Below are positions 13,063 to 45,503 of a stretch of DNA of 64,000 nt, piece after piece. The stretch comes from Mesorhizobium sp. M4B.F.Ca.ET.058.02.1.1 (GTDB lineage: Bacteria > Pseudomonadota > Alphaproteobacteria > Rhizobiales > Rhizobiaceae), in NCBI RefSeq assembly GCF_003952505.1, contig NZ_CP034450.1, positions 6,159,001-6,223,000 on the forward strand, in the 5' to 3' direction. Every line of letters begins with the position of its first letter. Positions within the stretch are counted from its first letter, which is position 1. The position numbers and the translations under genes are program-made. A model generated the notes under the pieces. The model searched no databases and was not told the origin of the DNA. It saw nothing but the letters and a program-made list of their open reading frames with translations.

Positions 13063-13910
13063 GCGTCCCGGTCCCTGATCTTCTGCGGCAGGTTGTCGAT
13101 CAGCAGGTTGACGCTGATGGTGAGGCTGGCGATCGCCAGCGAAGGCACGATGACGGCGGGGGCCGCGAAGGGCAGGCCGCCGATGTTTTCGCGCACCAGC
13201 GCGCCCCAGTCGGCGAGCGGCGGCTGCAGGCCGAGCCCAAGGAAGGACAGGCCGGAGAGCAGCAGAACGATGAAGACGAAGCGCAAGCCGAAGTCGGCGA
13301 GCACCGGGCGGATGATGTTGGGCAGGATCTCGGAGCCGACGAGATAGAGGGTGCTCTCGCCGCGGACACGGGCGACAGTCATGAAGTCCATGGTGTTGAT
13401 GTTGACGGCGAGCGCGCGCGCGAAGCGATAGGAGCCGGGGATATAGATGACGGCGAGCGTCAGGATCAGCACCGGGATCGACGAGCCGACGGCAGCGACG
13501 ACGACAAGACCGAACAGCTTGCTGGGGATGGAGTTCATGGCGTCCAGGAAGCGGCTGAGGCAGGTGTCGAGCCAGCCGCCGGTGACCGCCGCTATCATGC
13601 CCAGCACGACACCGGAAAAGCAGGCGATGGAGACGGCGGCGAGCGATATGCCGACGGTGTAGCGCGCGCCCATCAGAACTCGCGAGAGCATGTCGCGTCC
13701 CAGATAGTCCGAGCCGAGCCACAGCCCCTGACGCATCGGCCCGAAATAGTCGTCGTCGACGATGTCGCCGATGGGATGGGGAATGATGTAAGGCGCGAAG
13801 ATCGCGACCAGTGTCCACGCCAGGATGACCAGCGAGGCCACGACGCCGACGAGGTTGTAGCTGTGGCCCAGGAAGGACCGCCGGGAGGCTGCCGCGCGCG
13901 CCATCGTCAT
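13059..13910 (-). CDS. Oligopeptide-type ABC transporter permease (DppC family)
   Basis: A 283-residue inner-membrane protein starting MTMARAAASRRSF at 13910; the ATG overlaps the stop of the upstream permease (ATGA). It has GSDYLGRDMLSRVLMGAR, typical of DppC/OppC after the first membrane span, and VRGESTLYLVGSEILPN as the EAA-like ATPase contact. It pairs with DppB to form the channel. Confidence 0.93.
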   Translation of the reverse strand: MTMARAAASRRSFLGHSYNLVGVVASLVILAWTLVAIFAPYIIPHPIGDIVDDDYFGPMRQGLWLGSDYLGRDMLSRVLMGARYTVGISLAAVSIACFSGVVLGMIAAVTGGWLDTCLSRFLDAMNSIPSKLFGLVVVAAVGSSIPVLILTLAVIYIPGSYRFARALAVNINTMDFMTVARVRGESTLYLVGSEILPNIIRPVLADFGLRFVFIVLLLSGLSFLGLGLQPPLADWGALVRENIGGLPFAAPAVIVPSLAIASLTISVNLLIDNLPQKIRDRDA

Positions 13911-14857
13911 CTCAGCCTCGGGTTGGACATTATGGCGACGATGTCGGCGGTCGTGATGAGAAGAAGGTAGCCGAGGCAGAAGATCATCGCGCAGCTCTGG
14001 ATCAGCGGCAGATCGCGGGTCGCGACCGCATCGACCATCAGCTTGGCGATGCCGGGATAGTTGAAGATCGTCTCCACGATGATGACGCCGCCGACCAGAT
14101 AGGACAAAGACAGCGCGATCGCGTTGACGATCGGCCCGAGCGCATTGGGCAGCGCGTGTCTCAGCACCATGCGGCTGCGCGAGGCGCCTTTGAGGAGAGC
14201 CATCTCGACATAAGGCGTGGACAGCGTTTCGATTACCGCGGCGCGCGTCATGCGGATCATCTGGGCGGAGATGACGAAGGTGAGCGTGATCACCGGCATT
14301 GCATAGATGCGCACGAGATCGGTCAGCGAATGCGCCTCGTTGACCGACGACAGCGCCGGCAGCCATCTGAGATAAACGGCGAAGAGCAAGACCGCCAGCG
14401 TCGCGACCATGAACTCCGGCACGGAGATGACGCCGATCGAAAGCACGGTGACGGTGCGGTCGTAGACGGAGCCGCGCAACATCGCGGCGGTGATGCCGAG
14501 CGTCAGCGCCAGCGGCACCGAGAGCAGCGCGGTGATGCCGGCGAGCTTCATGGTGTTGACCAGGCGCCCGCCGATCAGAGCCGCAACCGGCATCTCGTTG
14601 GCATAGGAGGTGCCGAGGTCGCCGTGGAGCAGGCCGACAAGCCAGCGCAGGAAGCGCAGGATCGCCGGGTCGTTGAGATGCATGGCCTCGCGCAGGCCGG
14701 CGACCGCCTCGGGAGTCGCCGCCTGGCCGAGCAGGATCGACGCGGTGTCGCCAGGCAGCATGCTGGTGGCGAAGAACACGGCGAACAGCACGATCAATAG
14801 CGTGATGGCCGCGATCCCTAGCCGCTTCAGCACGAGGTTGAGAACCCCAGACGTCAT
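13907..14857 (-). CDS. Oligopeptide-type ABC transporter permease (DppB family)
   Basis: A 316-residue membrane protein with an N-terminal span, MLPGDTASILLGQ and GDLGTSYANEMPV, both family hallmarks, and an EAA-like loop near LKGASRSRMVLRHALPN. It follows the binding-protein gene after 88 bases that contain a stem-loop (14907-14937). Substrate class is peptide-like or opine-like; family membership alone does not separate these. Confidence 0.93.
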   Translation of the reverse strand: MTSGVLNLVLKRLGIAAITLLIVLFAVFFATSMLPGDTASILLGQAATPEAVAGLREAMHLNDPAILRFLRWLVGLLHGDLGTSYANEMPVAALIGGRLVNTMKLAGITALLSVPLALTLGITAAMLRGSVYDRTVTVLSIGVISVPEFMVATLAVLLFAVYLRWLPALSSVNEAHSLTDLVRIYAMPVITLTFVISAQMIRMTRAAVIETLSTPYVEMALLKGASRSRMVLRHALPNALGPIVNAIALSLSYLVGGVIIVETIFNYPGIAKLMVDAVATRDLPLIQSCAMIFCLGYLLLITTADIVAIMSNPRLR

Positions 14858-30097: not shown

Positions 30098-30502
30098 ATG
30101 AGAGGAGCGTTTCCCACGTCCAGGATCAGCCGTCGCACCGTGCTCTTCCAGTCGGGCACCACCGTTGTCGCCTTGACCGCATCAGCCACGGCACTCGCCA
30201 CCGAGGCACCGCGTCGAGAAGGAGAACCGTCGAACGAACTGCGAGCGTTGATCAACGCGCATAAGACGGCATACGCAGCGTTCAACAAAGCCGTCCATGA
30301 AACGGGTGGCAACAGCCGCGACTACGATGAGGCCAGCCGAGAAGAGGAGAGGGCGCTGATCTCCATCTGCGCCTTTCCCGTGGCCACGCAAGGCGATCGC
30401 TTTGCCAAGGCACGATATCTTCTCGAGATCGAGGCGCGCGGCGAACTAGATTTGCCAGAGCACATGCAAGCTCTGCTCCACTCCACGATGTGGACGGTAT
30501 GA
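30098..30502 (+). CDS. Conserved hypothetical protein with twin-arginine signal
   Basis: A 134-residue protein with SRISRRTVLFQSG (residues 8-20), a twin-arginine motif, followed by a hydrophobic segment to about residue 35. The rest is helical and acidic, with RALINAHKTAYAAFNKAV. Similar short proteins occur as unknown proteins in rhizobia. No partner gene is evident: about 235 bases before it and 210 after it hold nothing I recognise. It separates the amino-acid block from the monooxygenase island. Confidence 0.65.
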   Translation: MRGAFPTSRISRRTVLFQSGTTVVALTASATALATEAPRREGEPSNELRALINAHKTAYAAFNKAVHETGGNSRDYDEASREEERALISICAFPVATQGDRFAKARYLLEIEARGELDLPEHMQALLHSTMWTV

Positions 30503-30714
30503 GATCGCGGCATTATGGCGAGTGGTTCTCCATCTGATCGGCGGCATGGATGCGCAATGCTCTCTGACCTCTTGGGCAGCTTCGCGCCGCATGCCGGGAC
30601 ACTCAAGCAGCCGTGTTTCGTCTACCAAATGCGAACCTCTTTGGCTCCTAGTCCCAGGCGATTTGCACCTAGATGCGGTCGTTCAAGGCACGACGAGCGG
30701 ACAGTCTCGTTGGT

Positions 30715-30888
30715 CTAGTTGGTCTTCAATTGACCAACACGGTTCTCGGCAATCCATCGGGCGGCGAGCACAAGGGCTCCCATGCTGAAGTCCTTGCCGT
30801 GCTTTGCCACCATTTCTTCCGACAAATTGGCGAGCCGTTCAAAGAATTCATCCTTGCTCCTGTCTTCGGGGGTGAGTTCGGTTTGCAT
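30715..30888 (-). CDS. 57-residue hypothetical protein, last gene of the operon divergent from mimA
   Basis: An ATG at 30888 preceded by CAGGAGAAGAGA opens a 57-residue frame (MQTELTPEDRSK to VGQLKTN) that ends at a TAG at 30715-30717. It is acidic at the N-terminus and mostly helical by eye, with no membrane segment. It follows the beta-propeller gene by 33 bases, in the same direction. The strong ribosome-binding site and operon position support it as real. I know no family for it. Confidence 0.65.
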   Translation of the reverse strand: MQTELTPEDRSKDEFFERLANLSEEMVAKHGKDFSMGALVLAARWIAENRVGQLKTN

Positions 30889-30921
30889 TCTCTTCTCCTG
30901 TTGTTAGCGGCCTGCATTGGC

Positions 30922-32049
30922 CTATTTGAACATCTGCGCGGGAAAGGTGACGATCGCGACGGTACCATCGACGGCACCCACCGCCAGGTGGCGTCCGTCA
31001 CCGGACCAGCCGAGCGCGGTTACTGCGCTGCCCATTGGCCTGACGAGGAGTTCGTCCCGCGCGCCGATCTGGGCGATGGTGATCCGGCCGTTGGCATAGC
31101 CGGCCGCAACCAGTCTCTTCTGCGGATGCGCGGCCACTGTCTCGACCGGCACCAGCCCGGCGCGACCTGTCTCCAGCGCGCCAGAGGTCTCTCCTTCAAG
31201 CGGCGGCGCAGTCATCGACCAACCGGCGATCCGGAAGGCGCCCGATGCAAACAGAGCGTTCTCTGGCAGGCTCCAGCACACTGTACGGACCGGCGTTGGA
31301 AATCCCGAGACGATCTCAGCCCGGCCATCAGTCATGCTGACCAGGGCAAAGCCTCCGGTTTCGAGCCCGCAGGCCAGCCAGGTGCCGTCGCCACTCCAGC
31401 GGATCGATACCGGGCGCGCCGAAAAGGCGAAATCACGTATCGCGGTGGCCTCGCTTTCGACCATCCAGATCGATAGCCGGTTGTCCAAGCTGCAGGCAAG
31501 GCGCCTTCCGCCTGGCGAAAAGGCCAGCGCATCGGTCGACGGGGTCGCACCGTGGTGCAGCCTTGTTGCGGCGCTTCCGCCGCGCGACAGGAAGATGTCC
31601 TGCCCATTGCTGACAGCTGTCATGGCCGTCCGAGGGCTGTAATCGAAGGCGACGGCCGGTCCGTCAATCTTGGCCAGCGTCTCCATCACAGTGCCGTCCG
31701 CTGCCAGATGCACCACTTTGCCGGCCGCCGTTCCGACCAGGAAGCCGGACCCAAGGTAGCTTGCGAGCGGGACATCGCCTTCTCCCATCGCGGCGGTAGT
31801 TATCAATGGTGCCGGTGCTCTTTCCCTGGGGCGGATCGTCGTTTGGCCAAGGTCGCCGCTCACCCTGATCCGCGATTCCGGCGGCTCCTGGTCCGCGACC
31901 GCAGCTATGGCAACCGTCCCATCAAGGCCGGTGAAGGCGACAGCCGAGGCATCGGCGCTGAAGCGCAGGTCGGCGACCGCCGACGGGCGGCGCCAGCTTC
32001 TGGCCAGCAGGTCGAACAAGGTCAGGTTCTGTATCGCGTGCTGGTTCAT
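30922..32049 (-). CDS. WD40-like beta-propeller protein, divergent monooxygenase-associated operon
   Basis: A 375-residue protein starting MNQHAIQNLTLFDLL at 32049, with AGGGAAGGA upstream; the longer frame is a shadow. It is built of repeats of about 40-50 residues with WD40-style cores, for example ADLRFSADASAVAFTG, LAFSPGGRRLACS, IRWSGDGTWLACG, VAAHPQKRLVAAG and LGWSGDGRHLAVG, giving seven to eight blades, so one closed propeller. No signal peptide, so cytosolic. Propellers act as binding platforms, so a scaffold or assembly role beside the monooxygenase is possible but unproven. Confidence 0.8.
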   Translation of the reverse strand: MNQHAIQNLTLFDLLARSWRRPSAVADLRFSADASAVAFTGLDGTVAIAAVADQEPPESRIRVSGDLGQTTIRPRERAPAPLITTAAMGEGDVPLASYLGSGFLVGTAAGKVVHLAADGTVMETLAKIDGPAVAFDYSPRTAMTAVSNGQDIFLSRGGSAATRLHHGATPSTDALAFSPGGRRLACSLDNRLSIWMVESEATAIRDFAFSARPVSIRWSGDGTWLACGLETGGFALVSMTDGRAEIVSGFPTPVRTVCWSLPENALFASGAFRIAGWSMTAPPLEGETSGALETGRAGLVPVETVAAHPQKRLVAAGYANGRITIAQIGARDELLVRPMGSAVTALGWSGDGRHLAVGAVDGTVAIVTFPAQMFK

Positions 32050-32063
32050 GGTCCTTCCCTTCG

Positions 32064-32372
32064 TCAGTTTCCGGTCTCCGCCAGGCAGCGGTCGACGTCG
32101 TCGATGTCGCCTTCGGCGGCGGCGATGCGCTCCTCGCACGTCGTGCATGCGTGTCTGAGTGCCGCGGCGCTCTCCTCGGCTTCATGCAAGTCTCGCACCA
32201 GTTGCACGTTTGGACCGCTTCGGCCGATCTCGAGCTCCAGGCGCAGCACGTCCATCTCGATACCGGAGAGTTTCTGGTTGAGCCGCTGCGCCTCCGAGGT
32301 CAGCGCCGAGACCGTGGCGACAAGATCGAGGCGGCGGGCGAGCAACGTGTCGCGTCTTTCGGTTTGGCCCAT
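32064..32372 (-). CDS. Short coiled-coil hypothetical protein
   Basis: A 102-residue protein starting MGQTERRDTLLARR at 32372, with AAGGAG exactly 6 bases upstream; an earlier ATG at 32387 overlaps the previous stop but lacks such a site. Most of the length looks like heptad-rich helix (VSALTSEAQRLNQKL). A CTTCEE motif (C-x2-C) lies near residue 81. It lies 14 bases before the propeller gene. Function unknown; dimerisation through the coiled coil is likely. Confidence 0.68.
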   Translation of the reverse strand: MGQTERRDTLLARRLDLVATVSALTSEAQRLNQKLSGIEMDVLRLELEIGRSGPNVQLVRDLHEAEESAAALRHACTTCEERIAAAEGDIDDVDRCLAETGN

Positions 32373-32383
32373 CGGATGCTCCT

Positions 32384-32860
32384 TCATTTTTCGTTTCCGC
32401 GCATCGGTCCTGGCGGTTGCTCGAACGCCGCCAGCAATCCGGGCAGTGTGCCGGCCTGCGACCGGAACTGCTTTTCGGCGGTCTCGATGTGGCTCTTCAG
32501 CTGATCCCAGATGTCGACGCGCATCACCGATGTTGTGTCGCCGGTGAGGCGCTCTATCTCCTCGACACGGAACTGGCGCGAGAGCGAAACGCCGGAAAAC
32601 ACGAAGTCGCGCAGCAGGATCGCGTGGTTCTCGATGAACAGATGGATCATCGGATGGGTTACCGCGGTGACGCCGCCGGCAGCAAGCTCGGCCCGGATGA
32701 AATCCTGAAAGTGGCTCTGGAGGCGAAATTGGCTCTCGCCCAGGAAGCGCATGACGAAGACCAGATCGCGAGGCATCAGCCTGACAAGATCGCCGGCGAT
32801 GTCGTCTGGCTGTCGGGATATTGGCGATGGCAGGCCTTGGCTGTCCTTTTCATCAGGCAT
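32384..32860 (-). CDS. 158-residue hypothetical protein, first gene of the operon divergent from mimA
   Basis: Starts at ATG 32860 with GGAG 7 bases upstream. The protein looks helical throughout and soluble, with LMPRDLVFVMRFLGESQFRL near residue 30 and a C-terminal proline-rich tail. I recognise no family. The next ATG (32387) overlaps its stop. It opens a tight minus-strand set of four genes of unknown role whose 5' end faces the monooxygenase promoter region. Confidence 0.7.
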   Translation of the reverse strand: MPDEKDSQGLPSPISRQPDDIAGDLVRLMPRDLVFVMRFLGESQFRLQSHFQDFIRAELAAGGVTAVTHPMIHLFIENHAILLRDFVFSGVSLSRQFRVEEIERLTGDTTSVMRVDIWDQLKSHIETAEKQFRSQAGTLPGLLAAFEQPPGPMRGNEK

Positions 32861-32972
32861 GGGCTCTCTCCAATGCTGAGCCGCATGGGCCGCCTCTTCA
32901 AAATAATAGAGACAGGATAGAATTGAATAGATGAAATCTGTTTTATGAATGCTGCGAGAGCTAAGTAAGCAT

Positions 32973-33037
32973 TTCGCAAATGCGAATTGAGTATAAATAT
33001 TACAGGCGTAATTTACATCTGTAAAATAACGTTACAG
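32973..33037. promoter_or_regulatory. Palindrome cluster, candidate activator-binding (UAS) sites for the mim promoter
   Basis: Three inverted repeats lie close together: TTCGCA-AA-TGCGAA (32973-32986), ATTAC-AGGC-GTAAT (32999-33012) and TTTACA-TC-TGTAAA (33012-33025). The hexamer TTACAG occurs at 33000-33005 and 33032-33037 and, inverted, at 33019-33024. They lie about 75-135 bases upstream of the -24 element, the usual distance for enhancer-binding proteins. They also lie 115-180 bases upstream of the divergent operon. Confidence 0.6.
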
Positions 33038-33109
33038 TTGGCTGCCGCGTTTCGCGGCGAAGTGAACGGCGATTGTTTCGAACGGCCGGCGTTGGGCTTT
33101 TTTCAAAAC

Positions 33110-33125
33110 TGGCACGGCGCTTGCT
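33110..33125 (+). promoter_or_regulatory. Sigma-54 (-24/-12) promoter for the mim operon
   Basis: TGGCACGGCGCTTGCT matches the sigma-54 consensus TGGCAC-N5-TTGCW essentially perfectly, with GG (33111-33112) and GC (33123-33124) separated by exactly 10 bases. Transcription should start near 33136, leaving a leader of about 280 bases before mimA. The sigma-54-dependent activator encoded at 43422-45503 is the expected partner. Confidence 0.88.
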
Positions 33126-33414
33126 TTGTCACTTGCATAAGAAGCCCATCGCACTTTGCGGTGCCAAAAGAACGAAGGAACGGAGGAAGCAGGTCAGGTC
33201 CGCTTCGGTACGCCCATCGCAGCAGCGGTTGGCACCGGGCGCTGCCGACACCTCGGAAACCTTTGCCGCGATCCACTCGAACAGCCCGACGATCAGTCGC
33301 GCCTGAATGCGCAACCCTTTGTCGTGCCGTTCGCACTCTCACTGGCGGCGTTGATTGCCGTCTCACGCCCGGATCAAGGGATCCGCGGCTCAAACCTGGT
33401 GGAGGCTTATGACG

Positions 33415-35082
33415 ATGTCGTCTCTGACGCTCAACAAGATCACCTCGCAACGCGGCATTTCCGTAGGCGAGGCGACGAAGAAGATTTCCGACCTCGGTTG
33501 GAACCCGACCTATGTCCAGGAAGCGATGACGTTTCCGACCGACTACAAGATCGCCAAGGCGCCGCGCGATCCGATGAAGCAGGTGCTGCGCTCTTATTTC
33601 CCGATGCAGGAGGAGAAGGACAACCGCGTCTACGGCGCGCTCGACGCTGCCCTTCGCGGTGACATGTTCCGCAATGTCGAGCCGCGCTGGGTGGAATGGA
33701 TGAAGCTCTTCCTCGCCATCATTCCCTTCCCGGAAATTTCCGCCGCCCGCTCGATGGCGATGGTGGCGCGGCTGGCGCCGGGCGAGGACCTCAGAACCGG
33801 CTTCACCATGCAGATGGTCGATGAGTTCCGTCACTCCACCATCCAGATGAATCTGAAGAAGTGGTACATGGAGAATTACATCGACCCGGCAGGCTTCGAC
33901 ATCACCGAAGAAGCCTTCGGCAAGTGCTACGCAACCACCATCGGCCGCCAGTTCGGCGAGGGCTTCATCACTGGCGACACGATGACGGCCGCCTGCATGT
34001 ACCTGACCGTCGTGGCCGAGACGGCGTTTACCAACACCCTCTTCGTCGCCATGCCTTCCGAGGCCGCACGCAACGGCGACTATGCGCTGCCGACCGTTTT
34101 CCTGTCGGTGCAGTCCGACGAGAGCCGGCACATCGGCAACGGCCACTCGCTGCTGATGGCCGCCCTGAAGGAGCCGGAGAACCATCTGCTGCTCGAGCGC
34201 GACCTGCGCTACGCCTTCTGGCAGAACCACGCCATCGTCGACGCCGCCATCGGCACCTTCATCGAATATGGCACAACCAACCGCGACAAGAACAAGGAGT
34301 CTTACGCGGAGATGTGGCATCGCTGGATCTATGAGGACTACTACCGCACCTACATGCTGCCGCTCGAGAAGTACGGTATCAAGGTCCACCACGACGACGT
34401 CCAGGCCGCCTGGGAGCGCATCACCAAGAAGAATTACGTCCACAAGGTCGGTCAGTTCTTCGCGGTCGGCTGGCCGGTCAACTTCTGGCGCATCGAGGCC
34501 CAGACCGACAAGGACTTCGAGTGGTTCGAGCACAAATATCCGGGCTGGTATGCGGAGTTCGGCGACTTCTGGAAGTGGTACGCCAAGCTCAGCCGCAAGG
34601 GCGAAAAGGTGCTGCTGTTCAACAGCGACGTCGGCTACGTCTATCCGCACCGCTGCTGGTCGTGCCTGGTGCCTTGCCTCATCCGCGAGGACATCGTGGT
34701 CGACGAGATCGACGGGCAGCTGCACACCTTCGCCCACGAGCTCGACCGCTGGACTGCCGTCGAGGCCTTCGCCGACGAGTACCAGGGCCGTCCAACGCCC
34801 GCGATGGGCCGCTTCAGCGGCAAGCGCGAGTGGGAGACGCTCTATGACGGCTGGGATCTCGCCGACGCCATCAAGGACCTCAACTTCGTCCGCTCCGACG
34901 GCAAGACGCTGATCCCGCAGCCGCATCTGCGCTTCGAGGCCGACCAGCAGTGGACGCTCGACGACGTGCGCGGAAACGTCCTCGGCTCGCCGCTCAAGGC
35001 GCTTCGCGGCATGTCTGCGGCCGATCGGGAGAAGCACCTCGCCGAGTATCGGGCCGGCTTCACCATCACGCCGTTCAATTGA
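33415..35082 (+). CDS. mimA: Propane/phenol-type soluble di-iron monooxygenase, large hydroxylase subunit
   Basis: A 555-residue protein very similar to MimA/PrmA of actinobacterial propane monooxygenases. The six carboxylate/histidine iron ligands are all visible: E107 (PFPEIS), E137 and H140 (DEFRHS), E202 (AETAFT), E236 and H239 (DESRHI); their spacing equals that of methane monooxygenase alpha (114, 144, 147, 209, 243, 246) shifted by 7. I chose ATG 33415 (GGAGG 9 bases upstream); ATG 33409 is possible. It activates O2 to hydroxylate alkanes such as propane, or ketones and phenols. HRCWSCLVPC (C414, C417, C421) keeps part of a Cys-rich site, but the second cysteine pair I expect in relatives near residues 440-444 reads AHELD. 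Confidence 0.95.
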   Translation: MSSLTLNKITSQRGISVGEATKKISDLGWNPTYVQEAMTFPTDYKIAKAPRDPMKQVLRSYFPMQEEKDNRVYGALDAALRGDMFRNVEPRWVEWMKLFLAIIPFPEISAARSMAMVARLAPGEDLRTGFTMQMVDEFRHSTIQMNLKKWYMENYIDPAGFDITEEAFGKCYATTIGRQFGEGFITGDTMTAACMYLTVVAETAFTNTLFVAMPSEAARNGDYALPTVFLSVQSDESRHIGNGHSLLMAALKEPENHLLLERDLRYAFWQNHAIVDAAIGTFIEYGTTNRDKNKESYAEMWHRWIYEDYYRTYMLPLEKYGIKVHHDDVQAAWERITKKNYVHKVGQFFAVGWPVNFWRIEAQTDKDFEWFEHKYPGWYAEFGDFWKWYAKLSRKGEKVLLFNSDVGYVYPHRCWSCLVPCLIREDIVVDEIDGQLHTFAHELDRWTAVEAFADEYQGRPTPAMGRFSGKREWETLYDGWDLADAIKDLNFVRSDGKTLIPQPHLRFEADQQWTLDDVRGNVLGSPLKALRGMSAADREKHLAEYRAGFTITPFN

Positions 35083-35132: not shown

Positions 35133-35327
35133 ATGACACGCGCCCGCTTCGCCCTGCCCATCGCCATCGCGGCCTGGGCTGCAATCGCCGCAACCGTCTT
35201 CACTGTCACCGGGACGCGTCCGCCCGCCGACGACTGGAGGAAGGTGACGGCAGGCTACAAGGGCTCGCTCGGCCAGAAACCAAGAGCACCAGTGAAGATA
35301 TTCGCTATCGGGAGTCCAATCAAATGA
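35133..35327 (+). CDS. 64-residue predicted membrane protein between mimA and mimB
   Basis: MTRARFALPIAIAA begins a 64-residue frame with one hydrophobic helix (about residues 6-26) and a basic, soluble tail (ADDWRKVTAGYKGS). Its stop overlaps the mimB start by 4 bases (ATGA), so the two are coupled. The start has only a weak GGTGG. I do not recall such a peptide in the actinobacterial mimABCD clusters. It may tether reductase or hydroxylase to the membrane, or act only as a translational coupler. Confidence 0.6.
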   Translation: MTRARFALPIAIAAWAAIAATVFTVTGTRPPADDWRKVTAGYKGSLGQKPRAPVKIFAIGSPIK

Positions 35328-36382
35328 CTGACGCTCACACAGTGCGCCTGGAGCCGGTCGGCGTCGAATTCGAGGTCGAAAACGGCGAAACGGTCCTGAA
35401 CGCGGCATTCCGCCAGGGCATCGCGCTGCCGCATGGCTGCAAGGAAGGGCAATGCTCGGCCTGCAAATGCGTACTGCTCGAAGGCGAAGTCGACATGCTG
35501 AAATACTCGACCTTTGCCCTCAACGACATGGAGAAGGATAGCGGACACATCCTGTTGTGTCGGTCGATTGCCTATTCCGACATGCAGGTCGAGCTCCTCA
35601 ACTACGACGAGGAGGTTCTGGCGAAATCAATCGCGGTGAAGACGTTCAAGGGCCGGATCTCGAAGTTCGAGCATCTGACCCACGACATCCGCGGCATCGA
35701 GATCGAACTCGGCTCGCCGATAAAATTCTGGGCTGGGCAATATGTCGACATCACGGTCACCACGCAAAAAGGGGAGACGATTACGCGCTCGTTCTCCATG
35801 GCAAATACGCCGGACCAAACCCAAAAACTCTCCTTCATCATCAAGAAATACCCCGAAGGAAAGTTTTCCGGGGAACTCGATTCCGGAGGCATCCGTGTCG
35901 GAGCCGAGGTCACCGTCGTCGGACCCTATGGAACCTGCTTCCGGCGGGAAGAACGGCAAGGTCCCCTGATCCTTGTCGGCGCCGGCTCCGGCATGTCGCC
36001 GGTCTGGTCGATCCTCAACGATCACCTGAAGAGCGGCGAGAAGCGGGACGTCTACTTCTTCTACGGCGCGCGCACGCCAAGCGACCTGTTCTATCTCGAC
36101 AGGATCACCGAGCTCGCCGGAAGCCACCCGGAGCTGAATTTCATCCCGGTGCTCTCGCACGTCAACGGCGAGGCGTGGGACGGCGAGCGCGGCTTCGTGC
36201 ACCAGAGCGTCGATGCCAAGCTCAAACAGCTGGCGGTCGACGGGCAGGGCGACGTCTACGCCTGCGGTCCGCCGCCCATGATCGATGCGCTGCAGCCGGT
36301 CCTGTTCATGAACGGGTTCGAGACCGAACGCATCTTCTTCGACCGGTTCACCACGTCGTCCAGCGCCACCCCGGCCCATTGA
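35324..36382 (+). CDS. mimB: Monooxygenase reductase component (ferredoxin-NADH reductase)
   Basis: A 352-residue flavoprotein starting MTDAHTVRLE at 35324 with GGGAG 9 bases upstream. The N-terminal plant-type [2Fe-2S] domain has C39, C44, C47 (CKEGQCSAC) and C79 (ILLC). RSFSMAN (about 155-161) binds FAD, GAGSGMSP (about 219) and CGPPPM bind NADH. It passes electrons from NADH to the di-iron hydroxylase. The order hydroxylase, reductase, small subunit, coupling protein is that of PrmABCD/MimABCD. Confidence 0.95.
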   Translation: MTDAHTVRLEPVGVEFEVENGETVLNAAFRQGIALPHGCKEGQCSACKCVLLEGEVDMLKYSTFALNDMEKDSGHILLCRSIAYSDMQVELLNYDEEVLAKSIAVKTFKGRISKFEHLTHDIRGIEIELGSPIKFWAGQYVDITVTTQKGETITRSFSMANTPDQTQKLSFIIKKYPEGKFSGELDSGGIRVGAEVTVVGPYGTCFRREERQGPLILVGAGSGMSPVWSILNDHLKSGEKRDVYFFYGARTPSDLFYLDRITELAGSHPELNFIPVLSHVNGEAWDGERGFVHQSVDAKLKQLAVDGQGDVYACGPPPMIDALQPVLFMNGFETERIFFDRFTTSSSATPAH

Positions 36383-36434: not shown

Positions 36435-37493
36435 ATGGTAGCAACGTCGAGTTCAGTCGGATCGGGAGCCGCGGGAGCCGCGATCTTCGCCGATTCGGAC
36501 AGCCGGAAATATCGGTACTTCGAGCCGAAGGGCCAGCGCGCCACCCATTACGAGGATGTCACGGTCGACGTGCAGCCCGACCCCGAGCGCTACCTGATCC
36601 AGGACTGGATCATCTCCTTCTCGAACGGCAAGGGCGCCTACGTCAAGGACAACACGGCTGCCAGGAGCTCGAACTGGCATGCCTTCCGGGCTCCCGATCA
36701 GGAGTGGGAGCGTACGCACTACCAGCGCCAGTCGAAGATCGAGACGATGGTGCAGAGCGTCATCACCAACGCCCGCCGCGCCGGCGCGCCGAAGACCTTC
36801 GACAAGGTCTGGTCGAAGCTGCTGCAGGCGCATCTCGGAGCCTGGAAGCATGCCGAGTTCGGCCTGGGCACATCGCTCATGCAGGCGCAGCGCTACGGCT
36901 ACACGCAGATGATCAACAATGCGACGCTCACCAATTCCTCCTACAAGCTCCGGCTGGCCCAGGACATCACGCTCTATCTCGCCGAGATCGGCATGGACAT
37001 CGCCGGATGGGACGACGAGCTCGGCAAGAAGCACTGGCTCGAGGACGGCGTGTGGCAGGGCACCCGCGAAGCGGTCGAGACCATCATGGGCATGGCCGAC
37101 TATCTGGAGCAGTACTTCGCCATCAACATCGTCTTCGAGCCGCTGGTTGGCGAACTGTTCCGCTCCGGCTTCCTGATGCAGGCGGCGGCGGCCAACCACG
37201 ACTTCATCACGCCGCCGGTGATCTCGGCGGCCGAAGCCGACTACGAGCGCAACCTCGCCAACACCATCGACCTGATCTACCTGCTCGCCAACGACGAGAC
37301 GCACGGCGCGGCCAACAGGAAGCTGTTCCAGGGCTGGGTCAAGAAGCACGGCGCGCTCGCCGACAAGGCAGCCGCCGGCCTGCAGCCGATCTGGTCGATG
37401 CCGCATTCCAAGCCGGTTTCGTTCACCGACGTTCGCGCCCAGTCCGAGGAACGGATTGGCCGGATCCTCGGCGAACTCGGCCTCAAGCGCTGA
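36435..37493 (+). CDS. mimC: Propane/phenol-type di-iron monooxygenase, small hydroxylase subunit
   Basis: A 352-residue beta-type subunit starting MVATSSSVGSG at 36435, with AAGGGAGTGAAG upstream. It has the helical ferritin-like fold of the beta chain, with SRKYRYFEPKGQRATHYEDV near the N-terminus and AEFGLGTSLMQAQRYG in the core; it lacks the paired ExxH iron ligands of MimA, as expected for the non-catalytic chain. It forms the hydroxylase with MimA. Confidence 0.94.
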   Translation: MVATSSSVGSGAAGAAIFADSDSRKYRYFEPKGQRATHYEDVTVDVQPDPERYLIQDWIISFSNGKGAYVKDNTAARSSNWHAFRAPDQEWERTHYQRQSKIETMVQSVITNARRAGAPKTFDKVWSKLLQAHLGAWKHAEFGLGTSLMQAQRYGYTQMINNATLTNSSYKLRLAQDITLYLAEIGMDIAGWDDELGKKHWLEDGVWQGTREAVETIMGMADYLEQYFAINIVFEPLVGELFRSGFLMQAAAANHDFITPPVISAAEADYERNLANTIDLIYLLANDETHGAANRKLFQGWVKKHGALADKAAAGLQPIWSMPHSKPVSFTDVRAQSEERIGRILGELGLKR

Positions 37494-37510: not shown

Positions 37511-37879
37511 ATGTCAGTAGCAGCACGCGACGCTTCGCAGTCTAACATCTTCAAATCGATGAAGGACATTACCTTCGAGCAGACGATCTCGCACCAGTGC
37601 GGCGTCACCATGAACGACTCGGTCGAGGCGCGCGCCATCGCCGAATTCATGGGCAAAAAGCCGGGAGTCATCGTTACCTACCAGCCAGCCATGATCCGCA
37701 TCGACGGCAACGGCAAGCTGATCTTCAAGATGGACGAGATCAGCGAATATCTGGGTCGCGAGATGACCGCCGAAATCTTCGAGGTCAACACCTCCACCCA
37801 CTACGGCCGCATGGTGCGCATCGACGACAACACGGTGATCCTGTTCGGGAACATGGACGAGGTCTTCGAATACATCTGA
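37511..37879 (+). CDS. mimD: Monooxygenase coupling/effector protein
   Basis: A 122-residue cofactorless protein of the MmoB/DmpM family, starting MSVAARDASQSN at 37511 with GGGGAG upstream. CGVTMNDSVEARAIAEFM and PAMIRIDGNGKLIF are typical. It binds the hydroxylase and gates oxygen and substrate access. It lies 17 bases after mimC. Confidence 0.94.
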   Translation: MSVAARDASQSNIFKSMKDITFEQTISHQCGVTMNDSVEARAIAEFMGKKPGVIVTYQPAMIRIDGNGKLIFKMDEISEYLGREMTAEIFEVNTSTHYGRMVRIDDNTVILFGNMDEVFEYI

Positions 37880-37964: not shown

Positions 37965-38987
37965 ATGTACAGGACACCTGAAGGCAAGGACATCTTCGTG
38001 GTCGATGGCCACACTCATTTTTGGGACGGCAGCCCGGAGAACCAGAGGAACATCCACGGCAAGCAGTTCATCGACTGCTTTTATGCCTATCACACAAACC
38101 TGAGCCCGAGGGAGCAACTTTGGCCGAAGGGCAAATTTGAGAAATACAGCGCCGACGATCTTTATCGCGACCTGTTCATCGACGGTCCGGATGACGTTGC
38201 GATCGTCCAGTCCACCTACCTGAAGGACTTCTACAAGAACGGTTTCAACACGATCGAGCGCAACGCCGAGGTCGCCAAGCGCTACCCGGACCGCTTCATC
38301 GTCAACGGCTCCTTCGATCCGCGCGATGGCGAGAAGGCGCTGGAATACATCCACTTCATGAAGGAGACCTACGACGTCAAGGGTGTGAAGATGTACACGG
38401 CCGAGTGGAACGGCGCCTCCAAGGGCTGGAAGCTCACCGATCCCGATGCCTACAAGTGCTTCGAGCTCTGCGAAAAGCTCGGCATCAAAAACATTCATGT
38501 CCACAAGGGCCCGACGATCATCCCGCTCAGCAAGGACGCGTTCGACGTTCACGACGTCGACCACGCGGCGACGGATTTCCAGGGCCTCAACTGGATCATC
38601 GAGCATTGCGGCCTGCCGCGCCTCGACGATTTCTGCTGGATCGCGACGCAGGAAACCAATGTCTATGGCGGCCTGGCGGTAGCGCTTCCCTTCATCCACT
38701 TGCGCCCGCGCTATTTCGGCGAGGTCATCGCCGAACTGCTGTTCTGGCTCGGGCCGGAGAAGCTCCTGTTCGGTTCCGACTACGCGATCTGGACGCCGCG
38801 CTGGCTGATCGAGAAACTCTGGGCCTACCAGATCCCGCAGGACATCGCTGCAGAACGCGGTGTACAACTGACCGACGAGATCAAGGAGAAGATCCTCGGC
38901 CTCAATGCCGCGCGCCTCTACAACATCGACATTGATGCGAAGAAGAAGGCGCTCGCAAGCTCGCCCTTCAGCATCGCGGCGGAGTAG
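37965..38987 (+). CDS. Amidohydrolase family protein of mim/prm clusters
   Basis: A 340-residue metal-dependent hydrolase (amidohydrolase_2 fold). VVDGHTHFW (H16, H18) is the first metal site, KNIHVHKGP the strand with another His, and LLFGSDYAIWTP near residue 265 the metal Asp. GGAGG precedes the start. Genes of this type follow mimD/prmD in propane monooxygenase clusters and are reported as needed for the active enzyme there; the reaction is unknown, and a maturation role is suspected. Confidence 0.9.
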   Translation: MYRTPEGKDIFVVDGHTHFWDGSPENQRNIHGKQFIDCFYAYHTNLSPREQLWPKGKFEKYSADDLYRDLFIDGPDDVAIVQSTYLKDFYKNGFNTIERNAEVAKRYPDRFIVNGSFDPRDGEKALEYIHFMKETYDVKGVKMYTAEWNGASKGWKLTDPDAYKCFELCEKLGIKNIHVHKGPTIIPLSKDAFDVHDVDHAATDFQGLNWIIEHCGLPRLDDFCWIATQETNVYGGLAVALPFIHLRPRYFGEVIAELLFWLGPEKLLFGSDYAIWTPRWLIEKLWAYQIPQDIAAERGVQLTDEIKEKILGLNAARLYNIDIDAKKKALASSPFSIAAE

Positions 38988-38992
38988 GGGCC

Positions 38993-39790
38993 ATGGCAAC
39001 CGCCAGCGTTTCCGGCAGCCGCGAGGAGGAAGTCTGGCGGCGCCTTGGCGAGGTCAACGACCCGGAACTCGACGAAGCCATCACCGAGATGGGCTTCGTC
39101 GAGCGGGCCGAGATAACCAGTGACGGCACTGTGGAGGTCGACTTCCGCCTGCCGACCTACTGGTGCTCGCCAAATTTCGCCTTCCTCATGCTCGACGGTG
39201 TCCGCAAGGCGCTCGACCGGCTCTCCTGGTCGCCTGCCTATCGCGTGAAACTACACGACCACATGTTCGCCGAAGAGGTCAACCGCGGCATCGAGGCGGG
39301 CAGGACTTTCGGCGACATCTTCGCCGAGCTTGCCGGGGACCAGGATATCGACGCCCTGCGCGAAACCTTCAGCATGAAGGCCTTCAAGCGGCGCCAGGAG
39401 GCGGTCTTGCGCGGTCTGCGGGAGCACGGCCTGACGGATCGCGAAATCCTCGGCATGGATCTGGCGGCATATGATGCCGCCAGCTTCGAGCCGGGCGAGG
39501 CGGCCGCGCAGAAGCCACGGTACCGGGCGGCTCTGCTCCAGCGGTTTGCTGACCGCTGTCCAGGCGATCCGGTCTTCGTGACGTGGGAGGGGCGACAAAT
39601 CCCGCCCGTCGCGCTCAGCGCCCACCTCGCCGAGCTGCGCGGCGTGCGCGTCAACATGGAGTTCAACGGCGCGCTTTGCCGTGGACTGAAGCAGACAAGA
39701 TACAAAGAACTGAGTGTGGTCGACGGCGAGCCGACGCTGGTCGACTTCATCATGGACCGCGTGCCGGCGCGAAGCGCGCCGGCCGTCTAG
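38993..39790 (+). CDS. DUF59 / MIP18-like metal-sulfur assembly protein with C-terminal extension
   Basis: A 265-residue protein. Residues about 12-100 resemble DUF59 (VNDPELDEAITEMGFV, then LPTYWCSPNFAF with a single Cys), the fold of Fe-S carrier proteins SufT/MIP18. The remaining 165 residues are not part of the usual DUF59 protein, which is about 100-150 residues, and I recognise no domain there. It starts 5 bases after the amidohydrolase stop. By position it may help load iron into the hydroxylase. Confidence 0.82.
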   Translation: MATASVSGSREEEVWRRLGEVNDPELDEAITEMGFVERAEITSDGTVEVDFRLPTYWCSPNFAFLMLDGVRKALDRLSWSPAYRVKLHDHMFAEEVNRGIEAGRTFGDIFAELAGDQDIDALRETFSMKAFKRRQEAVLRGLREHGLTDREILGMDLAAYDAASFEPGEAAAQKPRYRAALLQRFADRCPGDPVFVTWEGRQIPPVALSAHLAELRGVRVNMEFNGALCRGLKQTRYKELSVVDGEPTLVDFIMDRVPARSAPAV

Positions 39791-39866: not shown

Positions 39867-41498
39867 ATGCCTAAAATAATGCTTCACAATTCGCAGGCCC
39901 GCCGGGCCCTTGCCCGCGGCGTCTATAGGCTGGCGGCGGCCGTCGAACCTACGCTTGGCCCCAAAGGCATGAACGCCATGATCGACCGGCCGATCGGTAC
40001 GCCGATGGTGACCCGCGACGGCGTCAGCATCGCCTCCGAGATCGAACTGCATGACCGTTTCGAGAACATGGGCGCGCAGGTCGTTCGTGAAGTGTCGATG
40101 CAGACCAACGAGGTCGCCGGCGACGGCACCACGACCGCCATCGTACTCGCCAACGCGCTCATCCAGGGTGGCATCGAGGCGAATGAACGCGGCGCCAAAT
40201 CGGTCGATCTCTGCAAGGGCATCGACCGCGCGGTGGCGGCGGTGGTTACTGCCCTCAAGGCCTCGGCCAAGCCCGCCAAGGGCAACGGCATCCTCGCCTC
40301 GGTCGCAAACATCGCCGCGACCGACGCCAGGCTTGGCGCGCTGGTGGCGGAAGCGCACGAGCGCGTCGGGGCGGAAGGCGTCATCACCACCGACTTCAGC
40401 GTGACCACCGAGACCACGCTTGACGTGGTCGAGGGCATGTCCTTCGACCGCGGCTACCTCTCGCATCACATGGTCACCGACCAGGAGAAGATGGAGGCCG
40501 TGCTCGAGCGGCCTCTGATCCTGATGACCGACCTCAAGATCAAGGACCCCAAGGCGCTCGAGACTACCCGCCGCATCGCCGACGAGGCCGGGCGGCCGCT
40601 GCTGATCGTGTCGGAGGAAGTGTCGCCGGAGGTGGTGGTGACCCTGCTCGGCAAGCAGGGGTCCGGGAAATACCTCATCGTCCATCCGCCGGAATACGGC
40701 CATTGGCGCAAGGCGATGATGGAGGATCTGGCGATCATCACCGGCGGCAAGGTGATCGCGCGCGATCTCGGCGGCCGGCTGGAGGACATCACAGCCGAGG
40801 ATCTCGGAACGGCCGAGCGGGTGAGGACCAGCGCGTCCTATACCTCGATCATTCGCGGTGGCGGCGACCATGCTGCGATCGCGTCGCGCCGCGCCCAGGT
40901 GCAGCGGCAGTACGAGGCCGCGCCGCCGAACATCGAGCAGGACAAGCTGCGCGAGCGCCTGGCCAAGCTTTCCGGCGGCACGGCCATCCTCTACGCCGGT
41001 GGCGTCACGCCCGTCGAGCAGAAGCGGACGATCCAGCTGATCGAGGATTCTCTCAATGCCGTGCGCGCCGCCTCCGAGGAGGGTGTCGTCGCCGGCGGCG
41101 GCTCGGCGCTGGCTCAGATCGCGCCCCTGCTCGACAAGGTGGCGGCCGAGGCGGAAGGCGACATCGCCGAAGGAGTGCGCCTGGTGCGCTCGGTGTTGTC
41201 GCGTCCGCTGTGGCGCATTGCCGCCAATGCCGGCGCCGATCCCGAAACCGTGGTGGCCGAGGTCACCCGCGTCAATGGCGGTTATGGCTACAACGCATCG
41301 GCCGGCAGCTACCAGAACATGTTCGAGGCCGGAATCATCGATCCGGTGCGCGTCACCTACACCGCGCTCGCCAACGCCGCCTCCGTGGCGACGCTGATCC
41401 TCACCACCGAAACACTGATCGGCGATCTCGCCGAGGACGAGGACCCGACCGCCGGCCCGGCACGTGGCGGCGGTTCGGAAAAGCTCGGCCGCGCCTGA
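39867..41498 (+). CDS. mimG: Dedicated GroEL-type chaperonin of the monooxygenase cluster
   Basis: A 543-residue chaperonin starting MPKIMLHNSQ at 39867 with GGAAGGAGGAG upstream. ATPase residues are kept: D51 (TRDGVSI), D86 (GDGTTT) and D394 (LIEDSL). It differs from housekeeping GroEL in the apical domain, where the usual APGFGDRRK reads PPEYGHWRK (274-282), and the C-terminal GGM tail is missing (it ends GSEKLGRA). No groES lies nearby. In mycobacteria MimG helps the large hydroxylase subunit fold, and the same role is likely here. Two small hairpins (39808-39827 and 39841-39855) precede it. Confidence 0.93.
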   Translation: MPKIMLHNSQARRALARGVYRLAAAVEPTLGPKGMNAMIDRPIGTPMVTRDGVSIASEIELHDRFENMGAQVVREVSMQTNEVAGDGTTTAIVLANALIQGGIEANERGAKSVDLCKGIDRAVAAVVTALKASAKPAKGNGILASVANIAATDARLGALVAEAHERVGAEGVITTDFSVTTETTLDVVEGMSFDRGYLSHHMVTDQEKMEAVLERPLILMTDLKIKDPKALETTRRIADEAGRPLLIVSEEVSPEVVVTLLGKQGSGKYLIVHPPEYGHWRKAMMEDLAIITGGKVIARDLGGRLEDITAEDLGTAERVRTSASYTSIIRGGGDHAAIASRRAQVQRQYEAAPPNIEQDKLRERLAKLSGGTAILYAGGVTPVEQKRTIQLIEDSLNAVRAASEEGVVAGGGSALAQIAPLLDKVAAEAEGDIAEGVRLVRSVLSRPLWRIAANAGADPETVVAEVTRVNGGYGYNASAGSYQNMFEAGIIDPVRVTYTALANAASVATLILTTETLIGDLAEDEDPTAGPARGGGSEKLGRA

Positions 41499-42650: not shown

Positions 42651-43340
42651 ATGAACAAGTGCATCTGTGAATTCGTCGGCACCTTCGCGTTGGTCTTCGT
42701 CGGCTGCGCGACGGTTCTGTTCATGCGCTCCGAGGTCGGCCTGCTCGGAGTCGCCCTGGCATTCGGCCTGTCGGTGGTGGCGATGGCCTATTCGATCGGG
42801 CCGATTTCAGGCGCGCATCTCAATCCGGCGGTGAGCCTCGGCGTCTTCGTTTCCGGCCGGATGAAATCCAATGACCTTGTCGGCTATGTCGTCGCGCAAT
42901 GTCTGGGAGCGATCGTCGCGTCGGCCGTGCTCTACGTGATCGTCCAGGGCAAGGGTGGCGGCTATGACGTCGCCGCGAATGGTTTTGCCCAGAACGGCTG
43001 GTCGGCCTATTCGGCGACTTCGGCGTTCCTGTTCGAAGCAGTCGCAACATTCCTGTTTGTGCTCGTCATTCTGCGTGCCACAGCCGAAGGCGGCGCGGGC
43101 GCTCTGGCAGGCCTGGCGATCGGACTGACGCTGGTCGTGATCCACCTCGCCGGCATTGCTGTGTCAGGATCCTCGGTCAATCCGGCCCGCTCGCTCGGGC
43201 CTGCTTTGTTCGCCGGTGGAACCGCGCTGTCGCAGCTCTGGCTCTATATTGTGGCCCCTTGTCTTGGCGCCGCCGCAGCCGGGCTGGCGGAGCGCGCTGG
43301 TGTGATCGGAGCCGGCGAAAGGGTGTCGCAGCCGGCCTGA
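42651..43340 (+). CDS. aqpZ: Aquaporin (AqpZ-like MIP channel)
   Basis: A 229-residue membrane protein with six hydrophobic spans and two NPA boxes, HLNPAV (58-60) and SVNPARS (177-180). The selectivity filter by alignment with AqpZ is F38, H165, S174 and R180, which is water-type rather than glycerol-type. AGGAGAGG precedes the ATG. It lies 70 bases after the alcohol dehydrogenase in the same direction, so probably in the mim operon. A role in solvent or product stress is conjecture. Confidence 0.9.
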   Translation: MNKCICEFVGTFALVFVGCATVLFMRSEVGLLGVALAFGLSVVAMAYSIGPISGAHLNPAVSLGVFVSGRMKSNDLVGYVVAQCLGAIVASAVLYVIVQGKGGGYDVAANGFAQNGWSAYSATSAFLFEAVATFLFVLVILRATAEGGAGALAGLAIGLTLVVIHLAGIAVSGSSVNPARSLGPALFAGGTALSQLWLYIVAPCLGAAAAGLAERAGVIGAGERVSQPA

Positions 43341-43421: not shown

Positions 43422-45503
43422 TCAAACGAACTCGCGCCGGATGCCGTATTGCTCGAGCTTGCGATAGAGTGTTGGCCGCGAGATGCCGAGCCGCTGCGCG
43501 ACCCGGCTAAGATTGCCATTCTCCACGGCAAGCGCATTTTTCAACGCCTGCCGTTCCGCCTCGGCGAGCGTGCCTTCAGGCACCTCCGGCGAGATGACCG
43601 CAGTGTCGCTCGACTTCGCGCTCTGTCCGGATGCGGGGGCCGTGATCTCCGCGGGCAGATCGTGAAGTCCAATATCTCGGCCGCGCGCCAGGACATGCAG
43701 ACGTCCGACAAGGTTCTTCAGCTCGCGCACATTGCCCGGCCAACGATAGGCGAGCAGCGCGGCAAGCGCTTCGTGCGAGAATTCCAGCGGCTCCTCGCCT
43801 GAGGCTGCGGCGATCCTGCGGTTGAAATGCTCGACCAGCAGAAGCACATCCTCGCCGCGCTCACGCAGCGGCGGCACCGTGATCGAGACCGCGCCAATTC
43901 GGTAATAGAGATCACTGCGGAAGCGGCCCGCGGCGACTTCCTGCTTGAGATCGCGGTTGGTCGAGGCGACCAGCCGGACGTCCACAGGCCGGCCTCGGCT
44001 GTCGCCGATGCGGTTGACCACCCGCTCTTCCAGAACGCGCAGCAGGAATGGCTGGATCTCGAGCGGCATTTCGCCGATTTCGTCGAGGCTGAGCACGCCA
44101 CCATTGGCAAGCTCGAAAACGCCGGGCTTGCCGTCGCGCGAGGCGCCGGTGAAGGCGCCGCCGACATGGCCGAACAGCTCGCTGCCGAACAATTCCTTTG
44201 TGATGGCGCCGCAATTCATCGCAATGAAAGGATCGTTTGCCGTGCGCCGGCTGCCGGCATGGACAAGCCGCGCAAACAGCTCCTTGCCAACGCCAGTCTC
44301 CCCTTCGACCAGCAGCGAGGCGACGCTGTTCGAGCGGGCAACGCGACAGGCGACATCGACGGCAGCAAGCAGCGCCTCGCTTTCGCCGACGATCATGGCG
44401 GCCGCGTCCTGGAGGTGCTTGTCCGCCTCCCGGTGGGTCACGCTGGAGACTGCAGGCGCCGACGGGAACACGAGCGCCGCGCCGCGCAGGTCGCCGTCGA
44501 GCTTGAGCGGCGTGATGTGGCAGGAACGCAGATGGGCCGGCAGCGCCCTGGCGATATCGGCCTCCGAGCCGGACGAAGGAAGGTTCATCAGCCAGCGCCC
44601 ACGCCCAGCCTCCATCCGACCGTCCGTCATTTCAGTGGCTTCGCCATCGGGCACGTTGTTGCGGAAGATGGCGCGGCCACGATGATCGAGGATCACCAGC
44701 CCGTCTTTCCGGCGGTAGCTGGAAGCCGAGGAGATGAAAGCCTCGAGCAGGCGCGTTCGTTGCTCCGCCTGCTGCTCGGCCAATGCCTTTTCGATCTGCC
44801 GGGCCGTTGCGGCGACCAGAGCGGTGTTATGCGGCCGGAAGATCGGCGAATAGCCCGACAGGTCGACGACACCGATGATCTTGCCGTCCAGTGGATCGCG
44901 GATCGGCGCACCGGCGCAGGTCCAGGACTTGATGCCGGCGCAGAAATGCTCGGCAGCATGGACGAAAGTCGGCTCCCCGGTCCACAGTGCCGTACCTATG
45001 CCATTGGTTCCGACAGCGTCCTCGTTCCATTTGCCGCCGATGGCAAGGTGGATATCCATGCCGTTATGCAGTGTCTTCTTGTCGCCGATAGCGTCGATCA
45101 ACACCCCGTCGCTGTCGGCAAGAACCAGCATAGCGCCTGTTCCCTCCAGCAGCTGGCCGATGGAGGCGAAGGACCGACGCGCCGCCGCGAGCAGTTCGGC
45201 ATTGGCCCGGGTCAGAAATTCGATCTCGTCGCGATCGCTGTTGAGCGGGGCTTCATGCCCTTGCGCATTGATGCCGCCGGTTGCGCTGCGATACCAGGAG
45301 TCGTGAATGAGCGAGCGGACGTGGCTTGGCTTGATTGGATCGCGGGCACATTTGGGTTCGTCGGCCAGAAAATCTTCCCAGGCGCGCATGGTGGCGCGCT
45401 CGTCATAATCGATGTTGCCCAGAACCATTTGCCTGCCGGCTGACGGCGCACGCGCCGGAAGAGCATCGATCTTCATCTGACTGGGACCCGGATCACGTTT
45501 CAT
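43422..45503 (-). CDS. mimR: Sigma-54-dependent Fis family activator, AcoR-like (MimR-type)
   Basis: A 693-residue enhancer-binding protein: a GAF sensor region at about 120-235 (GKWNEDAVGTNGIGTAL), AAA+ domain with Walker A GETGVGKE (401-408), the sigma-54 contact loop GAFTGA (449-454) and Walker B LSLDEIGEMP, then a C-terminal Fis-type HTH (SRVAQRLGISRPTLYRKL). ATG at 45503 or 45476. It is convergent with the aquaporin gene. It probably senses substrate or product and drives the sigma-54 promoter at 33110 from the palindromes near 33000. The symbol is by analogy with the mycobacterial regulator. Confidence 0.92.
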   Translation of the reverse strand: MKRDPGPSQMKIDALPARAPSAGRQMVLGNIDYDERATMRAWEDFLADEPKCARDPIKPSHVRSLIHDSWYRSATGGINAQGHEAPLNSDRDEIEFLTRANAELLAAARRSFASIGQLLEGTGAMLVLADSDGVLIDAIGDKKTLHNGMDIHLAIGGKWNEDAVGTNGIGTALWTGEPTFVHAAEHFCAGIKSWTCAGAPIRDPLDGKIIGVVDLSGYSPIFRPHNTALVAATARQIEKALAEQQAEQRTRLLEAFISSASSYRRKDGLVILDHRGRAIFRNNVPDGEATEMTDGRMEAGRGRWLMNLPSSGSEADIARALPAHLRSCHITPLKLDGDLRGAALVFPSAPAVSSVTHREADKHLQDAAAMIVGESEALLAAVDVACRVARSNSVASLLVEGETGVGKELFARLVHAGSRRTANDPFIAMNCGAITKELFGSELFGHVGGAFTGASRDGKPGVFELANGGVLSLDEIGEMPLEIQPFLLRVLEERVVNRIGDSRGRPVDVRLVASTNRDLKQEVAAGRFRSDLYYRIGAVSITVPPLRERGEDVLLLVEHFNRRIAAASGEEPLEFSHEALAALLAYRWPGNVRELKNLVGRLHVLARGRDIGLHDLPAEITAPASGQSAKSSDTAVISPEVPEGTLAEAERQALKNALAVENGNLSRVAQRLGISRPTLYRKLEQYGIRREFV

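Follow-up and report, generated by a model that had tools for sequence, protein, structure and literature searches.

Within a 64,000-nucleotide window of the Mesorhizobium sp. M4B.F.Ca.ET.058.02.1.1 genome (contig NZ_CP034450.1, the 6.46-Mb host chromosome), positions 30715 to 32860 carry four minus-strand open reading frames (ORFs), here called g1 to g4, that stand beside the genes of a soluble di-iron monooxygenase. All four were recovered in the ORF list where the initial annotation had placed them: g1 (32384..32860, minus strand; 158 aa, an undescribed family delimited from the ORF list, homologues and an alignment), g2 (32064..32372, minus strand; 102 aa, acidic, with weak coiled-coil-type matches only), g3 (30922..32049, minus strand; a 375-aa WD40 protein, from PF00400 and an alignment) and g4 (30715..30888, minus strand; 57 aa, the most widespread member of this module). 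The gene g1 lies head-to-head with mimA, which encodes the hydroxylase alpha subunit, with ∼550 bp between them, and the control region that had been described as common to both is therefore present. The predicted propeller was also borne out, as g3 scores 56.2 bits against PF00400 (gathering cut-off 27), which places it among WD40 proteins, and it matches solved WD40 propellers.

The gaps between g1 and g4 are short, and Shine-Dalgarno-like purine-rich stretches precede the starts, as judged by eye. An alternative g2 start at 32387 would give a 107-aa product and overlap the end of g1. Against six relatives, the ratio of nonsynonymous to synonymous substitution rates (dN/dS) is 0.15-0.23 for g1, 0.16-0.50 for g2, 0.21-0.26 for g3 and 0.03-0.08 for g4 (five of six pairs computable), the most constrained of the four. 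Because all pairwise values are low (0.50 or less), the genes look real. A search of Rfam with positions 30500-33600 gave a single, sub-threshold match.

The neighbouring cluster runs on the plus strand from mimA (33409..35082, with a start at about 33409; PF02332) through the reductase gene mimB (35324..36382; Fer2, FAD_binding_6 and NAD_binding_1), the hydroxylase beta subunit gene mimC (36435..37493; PF02332), the coupling protein gene mimD (37511..37879; PF02406), an amidohydrolase gene (37965..38987; PF04909) and a gene for a FeS_assembly_P (DUF59-type) protein (38993..39790; PF01883) to an ORF for a GroEL-like chaperonin in the mimG position (39867..41498), whose homologues are annotated GroEL in loci L145-L147. 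Beyond it, on the minus strand, mimR (43422..45503) encodes a sigma-54-dependent activator, annotated as such in its homologues in L146 and L147. The chaperonin and mimR, like the alcohol dehydrogenase and MIP-type channel genes of this region, were named from their own sequences and from homologues. The alpha, beta, reductase, coupling and GroEL-like components identify the cluster, by sequence, as a Mim/Prm-type soluble di-iron monooxygenase; the best NCBIfam match of mimD is MimD, at 111.8 bits and so below the cut-off of 150. Actinobacterial mimABCD/prmABCD clusters have the same enzyme genes, mimR and groEL according to passages in PMC8394569 and PMC7176365, and the Rhodococcus aetherivorans copy likewise lies beside amidohydrolase, iron-sulfur-assembly, alcohol dehydrogenase and GroEL genes. 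According to the title of Furuya 2013, the mycobacterial Mim enzyme depends on a specific chaperonin-like protein. The initial annotation held that none of g1-g4 belongs to the actinobacterial parts; this is so in two Rhodococcus plasmid mim regions (for g4, in the whole records too), other actinobacteria lying outside the comparison. A literature search gave no title on this module among the matches listed.

In 297 genomes drawn evenly from the order, mimA matches at an expectation value (E) up to 1e-50 were found in 22, of which 20 have at least 80% identity and two 32-33%. The gene g1 occurs in 17 of the 297, spanning several families, and every one of these has a mimA of at least 86% identity (86-100%). 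With the g3 profile, g3 itself is likewise recovered from 17 genomes, each at E 4e-87 or lower, and in one of them a second piece lies on another contig. For g4 the count is 20, comprising 19 of the 20 genomes with a close mimA and 1 of the 277 others. The close-mimA genome without g4 (G192) has a contig that ends just after g1, and the sole g4 match away from mimA (G214) is a 46-codon stretch with stop codons in a 3.1-kb locus without a mim gene. Fisher's exact test gives p ∼1e-27 for g4 and 6e-25 for g1, values that are not true probabilities as the genomes are related. The pattern that would speak against the proposed link, with homologues mostly away from the enzyme, shows no sign for g1 or g4 in these genomes. 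A draw across the phylum returned a mimA match at E up to 1e-60 in 5 of 398 genomes, four of them in the window's genus (its own genome included) and the fifth a match in two pieces. Among 72,556 plasmid records, five carry g1, all with alphaproteobacterial names.

When GTDB species genomes were scanned with the g1 alignment, 87 relatives emerged, of which the best 80 were taken as loci; all contain g1 by construction, and about half are Mesorhizobium and near-copies. The remaining hosts include Aminobacter, Ensifer, Sinorhizobium, Rhizobium, Labrys, Jiella, Methyloligella, Gemmobacter, Bradyrhizobium and metagenome-assembled genomes without a species name. Genes of the mim cluster lie alongside g1 in 79 of the 80 loci and mimA was seen in 75; in four Bradyrhizobium loci mimB, mimC and mimD are in the fetched flank and mimA is not within it, and the locus without mim genes (L107) is on a contig that begins 56 bases before g1. 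All four module genes were found in 75 loci, their ORFs not being checked one by one. Three incomplete loci are cut by contig ends (L121, L129 and L131), g2 is not seen in L132, and L133 has a g1 frame of only 85 aa. Two loci are unusual in content. In L134 (Bradyrhizobium sp. STM 3843, 9962-10638) only g1 and g4 are present, 33 nt apart, g2 and g3 not being found. In L088 (Mesorhizobium sp. ES1-4), mimA and g1-g4 are present, and no other gene of the mim cluster was found within 10 kb.

Relative to mim, the module occurs in three different positions, and two further positions are seen for g4 on its own. The head-to-head arrangement with mimA is that of most loci, in Hyphomicrobiales and Rhodobacterales. 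In Bradyrhizobium and in genomes G050 and G087, the module follows mimR on the same strand; G050 and G087 share a genus label with three genomes of the head-to-head layout. The betaproteobacterium Caballeronia zhejiangensis has g2-g3-g4 immediately before mimA and on the same strand as it. The gene g4 alone stands directly upstream of mimA in G167 and G152 (loci L057 and L058), and in Skermanella mucosa it stands after groEL with one gene between. On a MimA tree of 38 chosen rows, module states are clustered: they need 9 changes, whereas shuffled states need 12.5 on average and none of 200 shuffles came as low; many branches are weak and the contig-cut G192 was counted as full, so that single gains and losses are not placeable.

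A fifth gene, h91, occurs in relatives and has no counterpart in the window. It is an ORF of 85-102 aa (39 aa in one contig-cut locus) that, in 22 of the 80 loci, separates g1 from g2 and runs on the opposite strand; L103:10477-10737 (minus strand) is one of these, and L145:7203-7475 (minus strand) and L146:10886-11158 (plus strand) are further copies. Because h91 was not found in most Mesorhizobium loci, nor in Bradyrhizobium, among the 80, the window may show a reduced form of the module. Conversely, Ponticoccus, Paracoccus and G181 have h91, and g1 was not found in them (in G181 g2-g4 are present); in Caballeronia neither g1 nor h91 was found.

Passenger genes moved with mim by horizontal transfer, unrelated to the enzyme, could also produce such linkage. 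Distribution of the mim cluster within the genus is patchy (4 of 8 genomes, counting the window's own), several hosts have it on plasmids, and in all 17 g1 genomes, although they belong to several families, MimA identity is 86-100%. However, the genes stay with mim through five layouts and in hosts that range from Mesorhizobium to a Betaproteobacterium, purifying selection acts on the proteins, and among the 297 genomes g4 lies away from mimA only as one fragment. Hitch-hiking is therefore already disfavoured and we regard it as very improbable. A viral origin was probed with g1 alone, which had no match among viral contigs. As well as gene context can show it, the module belongs to the Mim system, and the repeated co-occurrence that the initial annotation had called for is strong, across distant genomes and several gene orders. 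Because they travel with the enzyme across many bacterial families, the genes are probably undescribed helper parts of it.

The small proteins resemble no described family in the libraries searched. Homologue searches found 289 for g1 and 308 for g4, 120 of each being listed. Neither g1 nor g4 has a match at E up to 1 in Pfam, NCBIfam or PADLOC, and the g1 profile has no family match in the PDB. Alignment members of g1, g4 and h91 (15 members for h91) gave only chance-type matches in Pfam, as did those of g4 in NCBIfam and the profiles of all three in the PDB. For h91, no family match was obtained in Pfam or the PDB; the best, of one of the 15 members to TraD at 0.0006, was taken as chance. 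The g2 protein (isoelectric point 4.67) has sub-threshold matches only in Pfam and NCBIfam. Residues invariant among 22 aligned g1 members include D32, H79, E103, D116, W118 and D119, and the g4 alignment has the consensus SKD.FF...LA.LSEEM.A.HGKDFSMGALVLAARWIAE. An invariant His is found in each of the g1, g4 and h91 alignments, which is only a hint towards an accessory role in metal insertion. A role in anti-phage defense was considered and set aside: PADLOC-DB has no model for g1, g2 or g4, and g3 reached only 14.4 bits to a HEAT/ARM model.

The g3 profile gave a further lead. Over 100 of the 297 genomes, the window's own included, have a second WD40 family that the profile detects at E ∼1e-35 to 1e-57, and the further matches listed are at ∼1e-27 or worse. 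By profile score, this second family contains g3's nearest relatives in the order. Ten of its regions were picked by hand, and eight of them have a CobW/COG0523-type GTPase gene on the strand of the WD40 gene and upstream of it, adjacent in seven and ∼1 kb off in one; the GTPase frame examined has a CXCC motif in seven of the eight. The g3 protein is 27% identical over 280 residues to the WD40 copy in the window's own genome. Unlike two of these relatives that were compared, g3 has conserved ends in its alignment, an N-terminal LFDLLAR.W segment and a C-terminal FP...FK tail, and it sits with mim and its own small partners. Membership in the COG0523-linked WD40 group was also considered; g3 lies with mim genes and is a relative of that group, not a member. 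No CobW gene is among the annotated features of L145-L147, the window itself not having been searched for one. As a separate observation, the g3-related WD40 gene of the window's own genome (G000:C1:3743075-3743875; L203:7064-8209) adjoins a CobW-type GTPase gene.

A passage in Haas et al. 2009 (PMC2770081) reports that prokaryotic COG0523 subfamily 5 clusters with WD40 genes. AztD, described in PMC6689063 as a periplasmic beta-propeller that transfers zinc, offers a precedent for a beta-propeller in metal transfer that is often encoded near CobW-family genes. Given the CobW-linked relatives, the report of Haas et al. and AztD, metal handling by g3 is a reasonable idea, no more.

To describe the control signals, intergenic regions were scored with the sigma-54 (−24/−12) consensus. 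A perfect match, TGGCACGGCGCTTGCT, lies before mimA at 33110..33125 on the plus strand. In the 70 divergent intergenic regions compared (the window and 69 of the 80 loci, many of them Mesorhizobium near-copies), a site matching at least 11 of 12 positions is present on the mimA strand in 67, of which 60 are perfect, and on the g1 strand in none. Upstream of the site, in the 70-region alignment, TTACA/TGTAA palindromes occupy 33000..33037 (no strand assigned); they are largely conserved, the TTACA..TGTAA pattern being missing in 6 of the 24 different intergenic regions displayed. These palindromes are possible sites for the activator, and MimR would be the protein that binds them. A site of at least 11 of 12 also directly precedes mimA in Caballeronia (between g4 and mimA), Skermanella, Azospirillum, Methylocella, G181, G050 and G087, and was not found before mimA in G167, G152, Ponticoccus, Paracoccus and the two Rhodococcus. 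A weak sigma-54-like site (10 of 12) upstream of g4 in L058 was not used.

The module is co-inherited with the mim cluster, keeps its gene order and is under purifying selection. The explanation we favour, tentatively and at slightly less than even confidence, is that the four genes form an accessory module of the proteobacterial Mim (propane/acetone-type) monooxygenase that serves as an assembly or metal-loading helper. The module would help the hydroxylase to reach its active state or to stay in it. The g3 WD40 propeller would be an adaptor or docking platform, with g1, g2 and, in relatives, h91 as its partners, and g4 would act on the hydroxylase or the chaperonin during folding or iron loading; the physical complexes and the maturation or metal-loading step are our inference. 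This fits the position of the lone g4 near structural and chaperonin genes (mimA; groEL) and a cluster that already holds GroEL-like and FeS_assembly_P genes. While the enzyme link put forward by the initial annotation is strongly supported, its assembly scaffold, quality-control or localisation device stands as a proposal, no evidence for localisation having been found. An assembly-type function does gain weight because g3 is related to the CobW-linked WD40 proteins and because g4 lies near mimA or groEL where g1-g3 are missing. A more specific version, which we consider unlikely, is a dedicated iron-loading and assembly machine in which g3 would descend from a COG0523 WD40 partner and g4 would hand iron to, or seal, the di-iron site.

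Several observations weigh against an assembly or metal-loading helper. No module protein has a family match indicating maturation, and WD40 propellers serve many roles. Two of the ten second-family WD40 regions inspected show no CobW-type gene, and g3 is not known to adjoin one. Loci L127, L030 and L033 have module genes and no amidohydrolase or DUF59 match (L030 and L127 being probably the same organism). The genes g1-g3 were not found in the mim regions of Azospirillum B510, Methylocella tundrae and the two Rhodococcus, and g4 is missing from the whole plasmid records of these four hosts, whose chromosomes were outside the search; because these regions lack g1-g4, not every Mim enzyme has the module. 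As the module is not downstream of the mimA sigma-54 site in the divergent and Caballeronia layouts, this site does not serve it and the module lies outside the mimA sigma-54 unit; the layout implies expression from another promoter.

The remaining adverse points concern control and favour the main rival, which is possible but on the whole doubtful: a regulatory or sensing device in which the propeller and helical proteins would hold or release MimR or sigma-54 activity and so set mimABCD expression, in response to substrate, oxygen or metal. The Bradyrhizobium layout, examined in 11 loci (nine of the ten Bradyrhizobium loci, G050 and G087), has mimR and g1 on one strand and 4-22 nt apart in 10 of them; in the eleventh, the chosen start makes them overlap. 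All five Rhodobacterales loci have an extra rpoN no more than ∼1.2 kb from g4 (L145:10183-11442; L146:7834-9096; L123/L125/L126 ∼13350-14680), and in four of the five the mim promoter carries CTGC at −12 in place of TTGC (L146 by eye; none was assigned in Ponticoccus). Since no g1-strand sigma-54 site of at least 11 of 12 was found, expression of the module may precede that of the enzyme, which would suit a regulator. A close MimR homologue (48-100%, nearly full length) is present in all seven module genomes or records tested, while in G167 (36%) and G152 (32 + 41%, in two pieces) the sigma-54 activator beside mim is distant. However, Skermanella, Azospirillum and Methylocella have MimR homologues of 43-46% although g1-g3 were not found there, the libraries tried revealed no DNA-binding or signalling domain in g1, g2, g4 or h91, and the propeller's relatives are linked to metal GTPases. 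Because G152 and G167 keep g4 beside mimA with only a distantly related activator, the evidence leans to g4 going with the enzyme rather than with the regulator, although the activator in these two may be a regulator that has diverged; the g1-g3 data fit either role.

Soluble di-iron methane monooxygenase also has dedicated extra genes around it, such as mmoG and mmoD, and no propeller is known among them. MmoD and the gamma subunit of this enzyme serve as the comparison for another explanation, quite unlikely in our estimate, in which g4 (perhaps g1) would be a small regulatory or structural hydroxylase subunit or inhibitor and the other genes its partners. The very strong constraint on g4 and its occurrence as the most widespread member, alone near mimA or groEL, agree with such a role. 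Yet the g1 and g4 profiles find no methane-monooxygenase chain in the PDB at E up to 5, so that an assignment of either as MmoD or gamma by sequence was rejected; moreover, mim clusters exist on records without g4 and the propeller is left unexplained.

Producing soluble di-iron monooxygenases in active form in a foreign host is difficult, and the way in which iron reaches their active sites has still to be worked out. The module adds four to five uncharacterised proteins tied to one such enzyme in Alphaproteobacteria and a Betaproteobacterium. If the maturation role is true, co-expressing the module, g4 first, could make these enzymes usable, and the relation of g3 to the CobW-linked WD40 proteins is a route to learning what the latter do.

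Three further features were recorded. The extra rpoN and CTGC promoters of the Rhodobacterales are perhaps a dedicated sigma factor/promoter pair. A MIP-type channel gene (42651-43340) lies between the alcohol dehydrogenase gene and mimR in the window and has relatives in 28 of the 80 loci, many flanks ending there. In the mimA leader, window positions 33168-33190 read AAGAACGAAGGA followed by GGAGGA, and the element is at the same place in L123, L125, L126, L145 and L146, so that it spans Mesorhizobium to Rhodobacterales; an ATG is close behind it in L145 and L123, and it is possibly a leader peptide or an RNA element.

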